From contig CAIPFE010000025.1 in NCBI GenBank assembly GCA_903864275.1, positions 1 through 64,000 of the forward strand: a stretch of DNA of 64,000 nucleotides, in the 5' to 3' direction. Origin of the DNA: an uncultured Mucilaginibacter sp. GTDB lineage: Bacteria > Bacteroidota > Bacteroidia > Sphingobacteriales > Sphingobacteriaceae. The notes under the pieces were generated by a model. That model had not been told where the DNA came from and did no database searches. It worked only from the letters and a program-made list of their open reading frames with translations. The translations under genes and the position numbers were made by a program. Shown here piece by piece: positions 11,413 to 16,304 of this stretch (position 1 is its first letter; every line of letters begins with the position of its first letter).

Positions 11413-12465
11413 ATGACCTATATACGTTCTACGTTCCGCCACCCCGGCCTGCCTAAAAATGAATTGGGCTATACCACCAAAGAATATGAAGGCGCTATAT
11501 CAACCCTGTGCGCTGGCTGCGGGCACGACTCTATCAGCGGCTGCATCATACAGGCTTGTTACGAATTGTCCATCGCGCCGCACCGCATAGCAAAATTATC
11601 CGGGATCGGATGCTCGTCCAAAACACCTACCTATTTCCTTGGGAATTCGCATGGCTTTAACTCCGTGCACGGCAGGATGCCATCGGTAGCTACCGGCGCC
11701 AACATGGCCAACCGCGATTTGGTTTATATGGGCGTATCCGGCGATGGGGATACCGCATCTATCGGGATGGGCCAGTTTGTACACGTTATCCGCCGTAACC
11801 TCAACATGGTTTATATCGTGATGAATAACGGCTGTTACGGCCTCACCAAAGGGCAGGATTCCGCTACCGCCGATGAAGGCTCAAAAAGCAAGAAAGGATC
11901 GGCAAATCCATTCCAGCCCGTTGACCTTGCGGGACTTGCTCTTGAATTAGGCGCTACTTTTGTGGCCCAAAGCTTTTCTGGCGATAAAGAGCAGCTGATC
12001 CCATTAGTAAAAGCCGCCATTGAACACCCAGGGTTTGCGTTTATAAATGTTATTTCGCCTTGCGTTACTTTTAATAATAACCCCGGCTCAACAAAATCTT
12101 ACGATTACGTACGTCAGCATATAGAAGCCACGGCCACAACAGATTTCGTACCCGAAGAAAAAGAAATTACAACAAGCTACAAAAACGGTACAGGTACCGA
12201 TATCCGCATGCACGACGGCTCCTATATCCGCCTCGAAAAACTTGCCGCCAACCGCGACCCTTACGACAGGATGGCCGCCATCATCGCCCTGCACAATTCA
12301 AGGAACAGGAATGAAATACTAACCGGCCTGCTTTATATACAACCGCAATCCACTGATCTGCACCATACCATACAAACATCAAACAGGCCGCTGAACAGTT
12401 TGGGGCAGGATGAATTGTGCCCGGGAAGCAGTGTGCTGGAAGGGGTTAATGGGGAGTTGAGGTGA
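11413..12465 (+). CDS. korB: 2-oxoacid:ferredoxin oxidoreductase beta subunit
   Basis: A 350-residue thiamine-diphosphate-binding subunit. It has the CAGCGHDSI segment (residues 33-41), GIGCSSKTPTY (65-73), HGRMPSVATGANMAN, and the ThDP motif GDGDTASIG (110-118) ending in NN (138-139). It begins 9 bases after the alpha subunit and is last in the operon. Together the three genes encode a complete 2-oxoacid oxidoreductase with its own electron-transfer flavoprotein. The C-terminal 30 residues (QTSNRPLNSLGQDELCPG) are the variable tail usual in this family. No terminator hairpin is obvious before the next gene. Confidence 0.5.
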   Translation: MTYIRSTFRHPGLPKNELGYTTKEYEGAISTLCAGCGHDSISGCIIQACYELSIAPHRIAKLSGIGCSSKTPTYFLGNSHGFNSVHGRMPSVATGANMANRDLVYMGVSGDGDTASIGMGQFVHVIRRNLNMVYIVMNNGCYGLTKGQDSATADEGSKSKKGSANPFQPVDLAGLALELGATFVAQSFSGDKEQLIPLVKAAIEHPGFAFINVISPCVTFNNNPGSTKSYDYVRQHIEATATTDFVPEEKEITTSYKNGTGTDIRMHDGSYIRLEKLAANRDPYDRMAAIIALHNSRNRNEILTGLLYIQPQSTDLHHTIQTSNRPLNSLGQDELCPGSSVLEGVNGELR

Positions 12466-12508
12466 GGGGGATATAACTTTAGTAAAATTGTAACTTATAA
12501 CATATAGT

Positions 12509-13105
12509 ATGGCGATCAAAGATAGGCAAAAGCTATTTACAGAATTAGTCAGTAGAGCGCTAAATGAACCAGCCCAAATCGACGCTAAGTTTTCCTGGTT
12601 TATTAATCAACATCAAAAAGAACATTTTAAGGATGCATATTCTATAATAGAATCTATTTTTGTTTCACTCAACGGGTTTGACCAACAAAAAGGTAAAAGG
12701 TTCCTACAGTGCGATGCCTATTTTGGCGGCAAATATAATTTCATGTTTGAATTTGACGAGTTTCAGCATTTTAGTACGGCCCGTTTAAATACATTTAAGC
12801 ATTACCCAACGGCTCTGAAATTGAACTTTTCAATTAGCCAATGGAAAGAATATTGTATAAAACATTTATCAAAAGCTGATCGTTACCGTTTGAACAAAGA
12901 AGCGGCAGATTTTAAATTTAAGGGAGGCAGGACTTGTCAGAGAGCTTATTTAGATGTTTTTCGCGATTTGCTTCCACAATATCACAAACTTAATCCAACT
13001 TTGAGAATAGCTGATTTTGAGGTAAACCATATAATCGATATAACTCCGCATAGTATAAAGTTCGTCAAAGATCTTATCGATAATAAAATTCAACAATCAC
13101 AGTAA
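12509..13105 (+). CDS. Hypothetical protein, possible nuclease-fold (DUF7255-like)
   Basis: A 198-residue soluble protein, all alpha/beta, with no signal peptide. Its most striking segment is FEFDEFQHF at residues 80-88 (E81, D83, E84, Q86, H87) followed by ARLNTFKHYP. An acidic strand followed by a conserved QHF turn recalls restriction-endonuclease-like families, and I recall a Bacteroidota family DUF7255 with the same pattern, but this is memory, not a search. The later part contains basic residues (KADRYRLNKEAADFKFKGGR). The stop abuts the next ATG with no gap, so the two genes are certainly co-translated and may form a complex. Composition is visibly AT-richer than the operon before it. 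A host-defence or DNA-processing role is inference only. Confidence 0.5.
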   Translation: MAIKDRQKLFTELVSRALNEPAQIDAKFSWFINQHQKEHFKDAYSIIESIFVSLNGFDQQKGKRFLQCDAYFGGKYNFMFEFDEFQHFSTARLNTFKHYPTALKLNFSISQWKEYCIKHLSKADRYRLNKEAADFKFKGGRTCQRAYLDVFRDLLPQYHKLNPTLRIADFEVNHIIDITPHSIKFVKDLIDNKIQQSQ

Positions 13106-14209
13106 ATGGTACCAGTTCGATACTTAGTTCGTATTAATTTTCAAAAGTCTAAAAATCATATCACAGCAACTGAAGAAGTCGAATTCTTAGAAAAGGAGTT
13201 TGTTGATCATAATCCTGTTCAGGCGAGGATTGCAGCCTTATCTTTTTTCGATAATTACATTGATTCATTGATTGAATCAATGGGAGAATCTTACAATAGT
13301 TTTAATGATATAAAACAGTTACTATATCCTTTATACCATCCTGATACTAAATCTTATGGTTTTCCTGATTGGGTGCATAAAATATTGGGCGTGTTCGTGG
13401 TATTTAGTCAGCCCATAAATGAAGATGAGGTTGGTGAAGAACGTATGATTTATGGCTTTGGGGGCAACGACGAACCATTAGATATTTTAATGGCCTTGCA
13501 AAAAGAGTTGGAATATTACGATCATTTTAATTTCGATAAGGGGCATTTAGAGACATCGGTTAACTTTTATGATGTTGAAGATGACGACACACAAAACTAC
13601 GCAATTTTAAAAACATCATTTGATTGGGACGGTTTAGACGTTCCACCGGATAATTTATCAAAGGAAGATCAGCAATCGGATATAATCGAAAAGCTTATTT
13701 ATATTGGGGAAAATATAAAAGTCGAGTTTAAATCAAGCCTGTTGTACGATTTTATCGATAACAAGTTTTCTTTCAATGTTATTGAAAAAAATGCAAAAAC
13801 AATTTGTGCCTTTTTGAACTCTAAATCCGGCGGTTTTTTATTTATTGGCGTTCGCGACGATAGAAAGATCCAAGGGCTAGCTCATGATTTTAGGTTATCC
13901 AATAAACCAGGAAACGATTTGGACTATTTTAGGTTACAATTTTCCGCGCTTCTAACTAGACATTTTGAGCATAGGATTCGAAATCTGTTGGAATGTGGTT
14001 TTGTTGAAATAGATGAGAAATTAATCTACGTGGTAAAGGTTTCCCCTTCAAACACTCCATCATTCTTGAAACAATATAAGCGGGATGATGTAACTGGCAA
14101 GTATGATAAAGTTGAATATGCCTTTTACTACAGATCTGAAGCTAATTCAATAGAAATACAGGATAAAAAAGATTTAGTTAATTATTGTTTGGAAAGATTT
14201 TCAAAATAA
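13106..14209 (+). CDS. AlbA_2 (Schlafen-type) putative DNA/RNA-binding protein
   Basis: A 367-residue protein. Residues 195-345 form an AlbA_2/Schlafen core: ENIKVEFKSSL with E207, NAKTICAFLNSKSGGFLFIGVRDDRKIQGL, and near the end EYAFYYRSEANSIEI. In this family the core binds nucleic acid, and in some members it cleaves RNA; the E207-x-K and GG-LFIGV segments are the conserved ones. The N-terminal 190 residues (starting MVPVRYLVRINFQKSK) match nothing I know and carry acidic runs (EDDDTQ). Its ATG directly follows the stop of the previous gene. AlbA_2 proteins are often found in defence islands and as regulators, so this two-gene unit deserves attention. Confidence 0.5.
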   Translation: MVPVRYLVRINFQKSKNHITATEEVEFLEKEFVDHNPVQARIAALSFFDNYIDSLIESMGESYNSFNDIKQLLYPLYHPDTKSYGFPDWVHKILGVFVVFSQPINEDEVGEERMIYGFGGNDEPLDILMALQKELEYYDHFNFDKGHLETSVNFYDVEDDDTQNYAILKTSFDWDGLDVPPDNLSKEDQQSDIIEKLIYIGENIKVEFKSSLLYDFIDNKFSFNVIEKNAKTICAFLNSKSGGFLFIGVRDDRKIQGLAHDFRLSNKPGNDLDYFRLQFSALLTRHFEHRIRNLLECGFVEIDEKLIYVVKVSPSNTPSFLKQYKRDDVTGKYDKVEYAFYYRSEANSIEIQDKKDLVNYCLERFSK

Positions 14210-14272
14210 ATTTTTCAATTCACAAATGTTCCTGTGATTTAATAGTTTAATCACCTTCAAAAGCAACATTAA

Positions 14273-14509
14273 TTAACCAGACGTTTGATACGCGATATTC
14301 AAGGTACAAATTACACTTGCATTTCCGGCACCGTAAGCAGGGGGAGGCAGTGAGGCGATTTCTGCATTAAGTATCCTATATTCTTTTATAGAATTTTCCT
14401 TTAAAAACTTAAGTAGCTTATTATTGAGTATTTCATTTAATTCATTATCATTCCCTATGCTGTCCTGACCGGGCATGAACGTATAGGAAAATCTTGCAAA
14501 TAATTCCAT
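14273..14509 (-). CDS. Small hypothetical protein
   Basis: A 78-residue soluble protein (starts MELFARFSYTFMPGQDSIG, ends NIAYQTSG) with no recognised domain. It is supported by a consensus TATTTTTG promoter box 14 bases upstream of its ATG on the minus strand, and by plausible amphipathic helices (ELNEILNNKLLKFLKEN). It is convergent with the AlbA_2 gene, 63 bases apart. It could still be spurious; no partner suggests a function. Confidence 0.5.
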   Translation of the reverse strand: MELFARFSYTFMPGQDSIGNDNELNEILNNKLLKFLKENSIKEYRILNAEIASLPPPAYGAGNASVICTLNIAYQTSG

Positions 14510-14522
14510 TTGGTTTTTTTAT

Positions 14523-14530
14523 CAAAAATA
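14523..14530 (-). promoter_or_regulatory. TAnnTTTG -7 box for the small hypothetical gene
   Basis: On the minus strand this reads TATTTTTG, with a TTTA about 17 bases upstream that may stand for the -33 box. It implies a leader of under 10 bases for the gene starting at 14509. Confidence 0.5.
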
Positions 14531-14573
14531 GCACATTCTCCGCCAGTTAAACGGTAGGCACTTAAAAAATACC

Positions 14574-14652
14574 ATGCCTGTTCAAGCGTGGCGTTTTACC
14601 GATACACCGCGAAGCGCTCCGAATTATAGAAACTTATTCATACATTTAAGCC
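14574..14652 (+). repeat. Direct repeat flanking the glycosylase gene, left copy
   Basis: It shares with 15592-15681, in the same order, ATGCCTG, AGCGTG, ACCG, CACCGCGAAGC and a 23-base stretch AAACTTATTC.TA.ATTTAA.CC (about 19-20 matches). The copies lie 1,018 bases apart, at corresponding distances before the ATGs at 14696 and 15719. It probably also contains the promoter of the downstream gene (TACATTTA resembles a -7 box). Confidence 0.5.
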
Positions 14653-14695
14653 AAGGGCGTAATAGGCTTGCAAAGCATATCTTATCTTCTAAAAC

Positions 14696-15589
14696 ATGTC
14701 AAAATCAGTAAATCTTTCGGAATATATCCATCCTAAAATGGATATTCTTTTTCTTGCACTAAATGCTCCAGAGGTATCTAATTCGAATGCTCACTGGTTT
14801 AGCCGCAATTTAAGCTTTTGGAACTTGTTGTATGATGCGGGCATTATTAATTCAAGAATTTACAATCCGTTGGAAGGAGATATAAAAGTGTTTGGCACGA
14901 ATACTTTCAATTGGAATAACATGACGATTGGCGTTACGGACTTAAACAGAGAACAAGTTGAAACTCAAAGTAACAAAGTAAATACCACAAAAGTACAGGT
15001 TGATAAAGTGCTGGGAATTTTAGATGACACAGACACTCAAAAACTTTGTATTATGCATTCAAAGGCGGCAAAAGAGTTTGCAAAACATGGCATAATAAAA
15101 TCAAATAATTCTTATGGGAAGATTGGACAATATAAGGGAACTGAAATTTTCAATGTGCCTTTTCACAATGCAAGCGTTCCCAACAAAGCAAGCTACTATA
15201 AAATGCTTCTTACAAATACTGTTATTACTCAAGGACAAAAGGCTGTTAAAGAAATCCCCGAGATACAAATAATAAAAAAAGCGCAACCATTAAATTCGAG
15301 TAATGTATTTTATCTTCCAGATGGAATGAATTCTATTACAGAAAGTGATATCAAAGCAGGTACAATCAGAATTACGATTGCCGCAAAAGAGTATTTCAAG
15401 AGGGAAGCAGTAAAATTACATATTGAAATCAACGGCCAAATTTTCTGCGCCCGCTATATTATCAGAGAAGGACGGTCGGATTTATTGAGAATAGGTAAAC
15501 AGGCATTGAATTTACTTGGCGTAAAGCCAGGAGGCAGGTTAAAATTTACAAAATTTGATGCTTTGCGGTTTAAAATTGAGAAGTCTTAA
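14696..15589 (+). CDS. Uracil-DNA-glycosylase-superfamily protein with extra C-terminal domain
   Basis: A 297-residue soluble protein. Residues 14-170 look like the UDG/MUG fold: MDILFLALNAPE (15-26) corresponds to motif 1 after the first strand, AHWFSRNLSFWNLLYDAGII (32-51) is the helix typical of TDG/MUG, GVTDLNREQVET (79-90) follows, and FNVPFHNASVPNKASYY (152-168) has H157 where motif 2 is expected. The usual acidic or Asn catalytic residue of GxNP is replaced within LALNAPE (N23 is present). Residues 215-297 form a separate beta-rich domain (TIRITIAAKEYF, RSDLLRIGKQALNLLGVKPGG) that resembles a DNA-binding pseudobarrel, which I cannot name. A base-excision repair or anti-phage role is inference. 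The gene is AT-rich and bracketed by direct repeats, which suggests acquisition. Confidence 0.5.
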   Translation: MSKSVNLSEYIHPKMDILFLALNAPEVSNSNAHWFSRNLSFWNLLYDAGIINSRIYNPLEGDIKVFGTNTFNWNNMTIGVTDLNREQVETQSNKVNTTKVQVDKVLGILDDTDTQKLCIMHSKAAKEFAKHGIIKSNNSYGKIGQYKGTEIFNVPFHNASVPNKASYYKMLLTNTVITQGQKAVKEIPEIQIIKKAQPLNSSNVFYLPDGMNSITESDIKAGTIRITIAAKEYFKREAVKLHIEINGQIFCARYIIREGRSDLLRIGKQALNLLGVKPGGRLKFTKFDALRFKIEKS

Positions 15590-15591
15590 AG

Positions 15592-15681
15592 ATGCCTGCA
15601 ACTTCCCGCTATCCAGCGTGTCGATTGAACCGGCACCGCGAAGCACCAAAAACTTCCCAAACTTATTCCTAAATTTAACCC
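15592..15681 (+). repeat. Direct repeat flanking the glycosylase gene, right copy
   Basis: The partner of 14574-14652, with the same ordered blocks (ATGCCTG, AGCGTG, ACCG, CACCGCGAAGC, AAACTTATTC). It begins immediately after the glycosylase stop codon and leads into the next gene. The last block contains TAAATTTA, a possible -7 box. Confidence 0.5.
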
Positions 15682-15718
15682 GTCCAACAAGCGTTTTATC
15701 AACCCAACCATCATAGCA

Positions 15719-16198
15719 ATGAAACCCAGCCCATTCCGGCAAATTTTATCCACATTACTTTTCACGGCTGCATTCGCCCTTGTTTTGTTTTGTAATTATA
15801 TGCTGATTCATTGGGGGTTCAGGCATGTTATTTTGCCTTTTATCCATTTGTTTCACGGAAAGAAACTTGCTGTTAAACTGCTGCTTATCGTAGGCGGGGC
15901 TACCATCGCTTTCCTGGCGGTATTCCTGATTTTTGTGTGGATAGCCGGAAAGATCAATAAAATCCTCGACTATATTTTTATTTACAACAAGGTAAGCTAC
16001 TATATATCCATTTTATTGGTGCTTGCAAGCATTGCATTTTCGGCACTTGATATACTAACTCTTTTGACACGGGATTTGTGGGCAATAATTGTTTGGCTGC
16101 TGACTTTTTATTTTGTGTGGCAAATGAACTGGGTATTTGTTTTCAGGGACAGGTACGAACCTGAAGATAAAGCCGGCACTTACCCCAATATGAATTAA
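15719..16198 (+). CDS. Membrane protein, hypothetical, four helices
   Basis: A 159-residue integral membrane protein with four hydrophobic segments at about residues 12-34, 53-76, 94-115 and 117-136, and a charged C-terminal tail (RDRYEPEDKAGTYPNMN). There is no recognised domain. The tail and the short first loop (RHVILPFIHLFHGKK) are the only polar parts. It lies alone between the glycosylase gene and the TetR gene and has the repeat-derived promoter region upstream. Confidence 0.5.
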   Translation: MKPSPFRQILSTLLFTAAFALVLFCNYMLIHWGFRHVILPFIHLFHGKKLAVKLLLIVGGATIAFLAVFLIFVWIAGKINKILDYIFIYNKVSYYISILLVLASIAFSALDILTLLTRDLWAIIVWLLTFYFVWQMNWVFVFRDRYEPEDKAGTYPNMN

Positions 16199-16269
16199 AT
16201 ACTTCACACCCTCTTCCAAAATTTGACAATCAGATGAACACACTTTGTCATTTAACCCTGTACATTTGC

Positions 16270-16297
16270 TTAACGGTGTTAAATTATTTAATATCGT
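16270..16297. promoter_or_regulatory. TetR-type operator, site a
   Basis: TTAAC-GGT-GTTAA-ATTAT-TTAAT-ATCGT. The inner 13 bases are a perfect inverted repeat with a 3-base centre. The site ends 7 bases before the regulator ATG at 16305 and matches sites at 16924 and 17022, which fits autorepression by the TetR protein. Confidence 0.5.
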
Positions 16298-16304
16298 AAA
16301 TGTA

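Follow-up and report, generated by a model that had tools for sequence, protein, structure and literature searches.

A probable phage-defence glycosylase of the TDG/MUG branch with a predicted B3-type tail in an uncultured Mucilaginibacter

A gene in a 64,000-nucleotide stretch of DNA from an uncultured Mucilaginibacter sp. (the whole stretch that was analysed, hereafter the window) probably encodes an unstudied kind of phage defence, as relatives of the predicted glycosylase often lie near anti-virus genes. The gene occupies 14696..15589 of the forward strand, begins with ATG, has exact open reading frame bounds, and encodes a protein of 297 aa in which a glycosylase domain is predicted to be fused to a B3-type domain. 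We favour, as a fairly likely explanation, that a glycosylase of the TDG/MUG branch was acquired by horizontal transfer, is associated with defence, and would attack a non-canonical base of phage DNA, with targeting by the B3 domain in a subgroup of two members. The family comprises ten members including the window protein: eight of Bacteroidota kind, one from Hathewaya (L036), and one from an archaeal MAG contig (L039). Weak matches (L003-L020, L025, and L029, the last of which has stops inside) are left out of these counts.

Fold and active site of the N-terminal domain

Library scans of the window protein with Pfam, NCBIfam, PADLOC, and PHROGs gave no UDG assignment. NCBIfam returned no family, the sole Pfam match was Pullulanase_N2 (E 0.21) and the cut-off of the UDG profile was not reached, PHROGs returned a single family of unknown function (E 0.19), and PADLOC gave a single weak match to mREase_II (E 9.8e-4, residues 102-153). 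The UDG profile of Pfam was passed at its cut-off by three of the six relatives scanned (L036, L037, and L039), with L040 remaining below the cut-off and L032 and L033 giving no match.

An earlier note on this DNA had proposed a UDG/MUG-like fold for the N-terminal part and had suggested structure prediction and fold comparison as a check. Both were carried out, and the UDG fold was present in the model, with the closest resemblance to the TDG/MUG branch. The AlphaFold2 model of the window protein, generated from the ten-member alignment, had a mean pLDDT of 80-95 in ten-residue blocks across residues 1-170, and a pLDDT below 50 at residues 176-261 and 278-297. When the N-terminal model was compared to the PDB using Foldseek, the best match was human TDG (4xeg, E 4.3e-9), and E. 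coli MUG was found at E 7.5e-9. VIA-align superimposed the model on human TDG (3ufj) with Z 20.2 and an rmsd of 2.3 over 169 aligned positions, and on MUG (1mug) with Z 19.9 and an rmsd of 2.1 over 157 aligned positions, whereas the family-4 UDG was well below these values (Z 13.2). The ten-member profile also retrieved MUG at E 3e-4 and TDG at a best E of 7.5e-4 from the PDB sequences. Judged by these matches and models, the UDG assignment of the window protein is well above chance, and we assign residues 1-170 with high confidence to a predicted UDG-superfamily fold of the TDG/MUG branch. The corresponding TDG/MUG-type glycosylase domain covers about residues 1-179 (14696..15232, forward strand).

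The positions of the active-site motifs agree with this assignment. The motif LALNAPE at residues 20-26 contains Asn23 (14762..14764, forward strand), which aligns with N140 of TDG and with the motif-A Asn of MUG that hold the catalytic water, and which is present in all ten family members. In TDG, N140 is reported to position the nucleophilic water, the N140A exchange costs more than 10^4-fold in activity, and N191 is described as also important for catalysis (PMC9800633). As the UDG fold is combined with an invariant Asn, base excision is the likely chemistry of the family. The strand with the GxTx motif and the insertion loop can be aligned as well, and HNAS (residues 157-160; 15164..15175, forward strand) lies roughly at the position of the NPSG insertion loop of MUG. 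The earlier note had pointed to non-standard residues within these motifs, and this was borne out at three places. The NPG that begins with the catalytic Asn in MUG and TDG, as aligned here, is absent and replaced by NAP in the window protein; in the family (NAP, NPP, or NPA), the position after the Asn is P in six and A in four members, and the following position is P in seven and A in three members, but never G. Asp82 (14939..14941, forward strand) aligns with N191 of TDG, and His121 (15056..15058, forward strand) is specific to the family, being present in 10/10 members at a position that is occupied by Gly, Tyr, or Thr in the seven MUG-like proteins compared. Ser28, His33, Phe35, and Ser92 are also kept in all ten members, and Glu89 in nine.

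Asp82 is part of a GVTD sequence where TDG has GFTN; the Asn of this GFTN lies 51 residues past the motif-A Asn of TDG and, counted from N140, is N191. An Asp is found here in nine of the ten members, and L038 has an Asn. As three of the seven MUG-like proteins (L024, L027, and L031) have the equivalent Asp, this residue alone does not set the family apart. Deinococcus MUG also has an Asp (GLTD) at this position. We considered and rejected an equivalence of Asp82 with the catalytic Asp93 of that enzyme, as the PDB chains of the wild type and the D93A variant differ further along than the GLTD Asp. N204 of UNG presumably corresponds to N191 of TDG. The N204D variant of human UNG1 is reported to excise C (PMC11162499), and by analogy it is a speculation that Asp82 could confer specificity for cytosine.

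An ordinary MUG-type glycosylase for mismatch or uracil repair, horizontally spread and equipped with a non-specific DNA-binding tail, would have the same fold and the same catalytic Asn as MUG and TDG. A MUG-like enzyme (L042) is indeed encoded in a genome of the same taxonomic family, and the Asp in three of seven MUG-like proteins would also fit with such a repair function. We nevertheless consider this explanation unlikely. In a tree of the ten family members and the seven MUG-like proteins, which was unrooted and did not include the solved MUG and TDG, the family was entirely on one side of a branch with a support of 96/96, the long sequence L024 attaching nearest to the family, although weakly. 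His121 is present in all ten family members and in none of the seven MUG-like proteins. The family further differs from TDG and MUG proteins by a segment before GVTD that is longer than in L042, and by the B3-type tail of two members.

The predicted B3-type tail

The earlier note had described the C-terminal 80 residues as a pseudobarrel DNA-binding domain, and our analyses point in the same direction. The tail was modelled as residues 199-297 (15290..15586, forward strand) and is a putative DNA-binding domain of the B3 pseudobarrel type. It is kept in L032, with 48% identity across the trimmed domain, and is absent from the other eight family members. With these two sequences as input, the best AlphaFold2 model of the tail reached a pLDDT of 75.7, and the other four models were at 44-63. 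The first 12 residues of the tail model had a pLDDT below 50, and the better-modelled part, roughly residues 211-297, fits the size that had been proposed.

Foldseek matched the tail model first to the B3 domain of VAL1 (E 1.5e-3) and then to LlaJI.R1 (E 2.5e-3), with no E-value under 0.001. With VIA-align, VAL1 B3 was aligned with Z 10.4 and an rmsd of 2.4 over 95 positions, and Z-scores of 10.4, 9.7, 8.3, 7.4, and 6.6 were obtained with NGA1, LlaJI.R1, BfiI, EcoRII-N, and NgoAVII, respectively. Ranks 1-26 of this comparison were all B3 or B3-like domains, not all of which say B3 in their titles, and the next, unrelated entries had Z-scores of 4.4 or less. Taken as a model-based assignment, the tail is a B3-type pseudobarrel with moderate confidence. 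It thus resembles in fold the B3 domains of plant transcription factors (VAL1 and NGA1) and shares the pseudobarrel with the B3-like domains of EcoRII, BfiI, NgoAVII, and LlaJI (best Z per enzyme 6.6-9.7). In these restriction enzymes, however, the B3 domain is attached to a nuclease domain, whereas here it is attached to a domain of the base-excision type.

A search with the tail profile gave matches at E <= 0.1 in 14 of 198 genomes including its own, and the other 13 were at E 0.0039 or worse. Two of these 13 weak loci were read, and they encode an ABC transporter (L045) and a large restriction-type enzyme (L047); in the latter, it is the C-terminal region that weakly matches the B3-tail profile (E 0.011). 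No copy of the tail was found on plasmids, phages, or viral contigs.

The resemblance to restriction enzymes raises the idea of a true restriction glycosylase, in which B3 would read a site and a normal base would be removed unless it had been methylated by the host, as in PabI but with other domains. The fold matches to the B3-like domains of BfiI, EcoRII, NgoAVII, and LlaJI speak for this idea, as do the reported binding of the recognition sequences of NgoAVII and CglI by their B3 domain (PMC4267653) and the presence of relatives without B3 in type I and type III-like loci (see below). We regard it as quite improbable, as no methyltransferase was found among the annotated neighbours in the window and at L032 (only part of the window genes being annotated), and unmodified host DNA would thus be at risk. 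If the window protein is active, it would have in common with PabI the use of base excision for restriction (PMC10273834). PabI has a HALF PIPE fold and an adjacent methyltransferase, whereas here the best matches are UDG folds and the annotated neighbours just mentioned include no such enzyme.

Distribution and genomic surroundings

The gene is rare, and its distribution is sporadic. When the window protein was searched in 100 genomes (its own and 99 relatives), only its own genome had a match at E <= 0.001 (0/99 others). In the phylum (395 genomes), matches at E <= 1 were obtained in 52 genomes, but the only strong ones were its own and G132 (E 8.6e-19), with the next-best match at E 0.006. 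A two-row profile searched against 395 genomes of the class gave five genomes at E <= 0.01, of which its own, G683, and G569 were strong and G089 and G769 were weak. Within the taxonomic family of G132, the only match in 79 genomes was G132 itself, and in the order of G569, only G569 was found in 46 genomes. Seven of 294 genomes around G132 had matches, namely G132, L029, and five MUG-like proteins (L026, L027, L028, L030, and L031). A broader scan of genome contigs yielded 61 candidate stretches, nine of which were confirmed; three of these nine were loci already found (L033 = G683, L037 = G569, and L040 = G132), as seen from identical ORF listings. The ten-row profile identified two of 300 genomes of the order at E <= 1e-6, its own and that with the MUG-like protein L042. 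No copy of the window protein was found on plasmids, phages, or viral contigs, and the alignments A1 and A2 gave no copy on viral contigs. With L037, 11 distant matches were obtained in plasmid records (best E 9e-4; seven annotated as mug, four unannotated) and none in phage records. This sporadic distribution is a further point against an ordinary repair enzyme.

In the window, the glycosylase gene is the last of a three-gene insert of foreign composition. The GC content is 0.41-0.53 upstream and drops to 0.32-0.39 in the region of about 12500-15600, and the GC3 values of the three genes are 0.307, 0.304, and 0.309, as compared to 0.436-0.547 in seven flanking genes. The first gene (12509..13105, forward strand) encodes a DUF7255 protein (PF23913, E 1.4e-6) and the directly adjacent second gene (13106..14209, forward strand) a Schlafen/AlbA_2 protein (PF04326, E 1.2e-16), with a long N-terminal stretch that AlbA_2 does not cover. 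These two genes may form a small, separate defence module. As the Schlafen and glycosylase genes are 486 nt apart with a short reverse ORF between them (14273-14509, reverse strand, 78 aa; perhaps a small gene or the remains of one), they do not form an evident operon. In a promoter and terminator scan, six promoter sites were found as compared to 5.6 in shuffles, and no terminator-like site was detected. Rfam gave no family at the gathering threshold in 12400-16300.

The glycosylase gene is flanked by an imperfect direct repeat of 48 nt (14605..14652 and 15634..15681, both forward strand; 73% identity, spacing 1029). By gapped alignment, the repeat extends over about 72 columns with a score of 57, the highest values being 46 among 500 shuffles and 44 in the rest of the window. 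A strict pattern derived from the first 35 nt of both copies, which would miss more diverged copies, had no occurrence in the 6.03 Mb genome other than these two. As the left copy ends 43 nt and the right copy 37 nt before a start codon, the repeat could represent a duplication of the upstream region, or a scar left when a single gene was inserted.

The gene before the insert (11413-12465) is of the TPP-enzyme type and resembles the beta subunit of pyruvate/2-oxoacid ferredoxin oxidoreductases. Only two of the 41 genomes searched in the genus had a match to it at E <= 1e-50, and the flank may therefore itself be accessory. In the single one of 40 congeners that has this gene, the contig ends 57 nt past it, and synteny at the insertion site was thus uninformative. 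Two further loci of the UDG family in this genome exceed the cut-off of Pfam, and basic uracil repair is therefore probably independent of the window gene, which again argues against a repair function.

The neighbourhoods of the relatives support a defence role indirectly. Defence genes recognised by PADLOC were present within about 5 kb at five of the ten loci (L033, L034, L035, L036, and L040), which likewise speaks against ordinary repair. These are type I restriction-modification genes at two loci, and genes of a type III-like system, of the CBASS type, and of DRT3 at one locus each. At L033, the genes for HsdM, HsdS, and the glycosylase follow each other, the last two overlapping. The order at L034 is HsdM, a PDC-S26 gene with a PD-(D/E)XK domain, HsdS, glycosylase, a 220-aa gene, and HsdR. 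The 220-aa gene (10532-11194 of L034) had no Pfam or PADLOC match and contains a D...ExK-like stretch; its product may be a nuclease. L035 has Drt3b (cut by the contig end), DUF2779-Cas4, and the glycosylase. At L036, the glycosylase is followed by an HKD+Snf2 helicase, DUF4391, and MTase_III, with the helicase (10779-14049 of L036) apparently split into two overlapping frames, due to a frameshift or a sequencing error. L040 encodes DUF559, the glycosylase, a patatin-type CBASS effector (phospholipase), and a cyclase.

At three further loci, only a Schlafen/AlbA_2 or DUF2779-Cas4 neighbour was seen: the window (DUF7255, Schlafen/AlbA_2, glycosylase), L037 (glycosylase, with Schlafen/AlbA_2 starting 1 nt later), and L039 (glycosylase, DUF2779-Cas4). 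The Schlafen proteins of the window and L037 are 32% identical over 258 aligned columns, and neither of them nor DUF7255 had a PADLOC match. DUF7255 showed no similarity to the DUF559 gene product beside L040. The DUF2779 proteins of L035 and L039 are 38% identical over nearly the full length and matched only Cas4 models in PADLOC (best E 2e-8), and their occurrence beside the glycosylase in a Bacteroidota MAG as well as in an archaeal MAG contig suggests a mobile gene pair. Neither kind of neighbour was found at L032 and L038, where the scans covered 4 + 1 neighbours with Pfam and 1 + 0 with PADLOC, the contig of L038 starting just upstream of its glycosylase gene. As a control, ten neighbour genes were chosen from six of the seven MUG-like loci. 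Eight of them gave no match in PADLOC, and the weak matches of the other two (a coiled-coil protein with best E 4.6e-6, the other with 0.0023) were read as chance. This comparison favours the family, because the control loci comprised about 3 kb and the family loci up to 20 kb.

As the partners vary by locus and several are nuclease- or helicase-like, one could also think of a sensor that does not excise bases, in which the fold would flip or recognise a base and recruit a nuclease or helicase (Schlafen, DUF2779-Cas4, or restriction subunits). That the partners are not constant can equally be held against such a sensor, and binding alone would not need the catalytic Asn, which is invariant. 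We therefore regard a pure sensor function as very improbable.

Candidate mechanism and relation to known defence glycosylases

In the favoured explanation of a defence-associated glycosylase, the N-terminal domain would flip a base out of the DNA, and the N-glycosidic bond would be hydrolysed by water held on Asn23. The target would most likely be a non-canonical base in the DNA of an invading phage, in analogy to Brig1, Brig2, and Brig3, and the resulting abasic sites would block replication or be cut by nucleases. In the window protein and L032, the B3 tail could tether the enzyme to DNA or limit it to a short sequence. The base-excision activity, the modified-base substrate, the anti-phage outcome, and the role of the tail are thus what we infer. 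Since the annotated neighbours of the two B3 carriers include no methyltransferase and an attack on normal bases would endanger the host, a non-canonical incoming base is the likelier target. The lack of an evident defence neighbour at L032, the sole other B3 carrier, where few neighbours were scanned, stands against the defence reading. A more specific variant, which we consider rather unlikely, is a sequence-guided excision defence, in which B3 would direct the TDG-type glycosylase to short phage sites and the Asp82 pocket might select cytosine-type bases. If this were true, restriction by base excision would have been invented separately from PabI, and the protein would be a natural scaffold for targeted base excision.

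Phage defence by base excision is already known. Brig1 is reported to remove alpha-glucosyl-hmC (PMC11078745), Brig3 to remove 5hmC, and Brig2 to counter phages whose thymine is modified (PMC13160076). Brig1 and Brig3 are described as members of the UDG superfamily, and the Brig3 island includes CBASS (PMC11078745, PMC13160076). Uracil glycosylases are also said to restrict uracil-containing phages (PMC10273834). Like the family described here, the three Brig proteins are glycosylases near other defence genes, whereas the window itself offers only Schlafen/AlbA_2 and DUF7255 without a PADLOC match. The best structural match reported for Brig1 is a family-4 UDG (Dali Z 9.2; PMC11078745), in contrast to the present family, for which family 4 is well below TDG/MUG. 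Brig3 is described as a single-domain protein (PMC13160076), unlike the window protein; the Brig proteins were compared by their published description. The DefensePredictor study has a UDG domain among its predicted, unvalidated systems (PMC13092281), which may or may not be the clade described here.

Our literature search, which covered titles and the openings of abstracts, revealed no description of a glycosylase-B3 fusion or of this TDG/MUG-derived clade. Within the literature searched, two things seem to be new: the link of a clade derived from TDG/MUG with several defence contexts, and the joining of its glycosylase domain to one of the B3 type. The defence glycosylases named in the cited papers are the three Brig-type enzymes and the PabI restriction glycosylases. 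The clade would add to these a TDG/MUG-derived branch, some of whose members lie within restriction-modification loci or close to CBASS-type or DRT3 genes. The architecture of the window protein would couple base excision to DNA reading by a domain such as restriction enzymes use. Two points could thereby be tested, namely the identity of the phage bases that excision attacks and the ability of a B3 domain to confer sequence specificity on a glycosylase.
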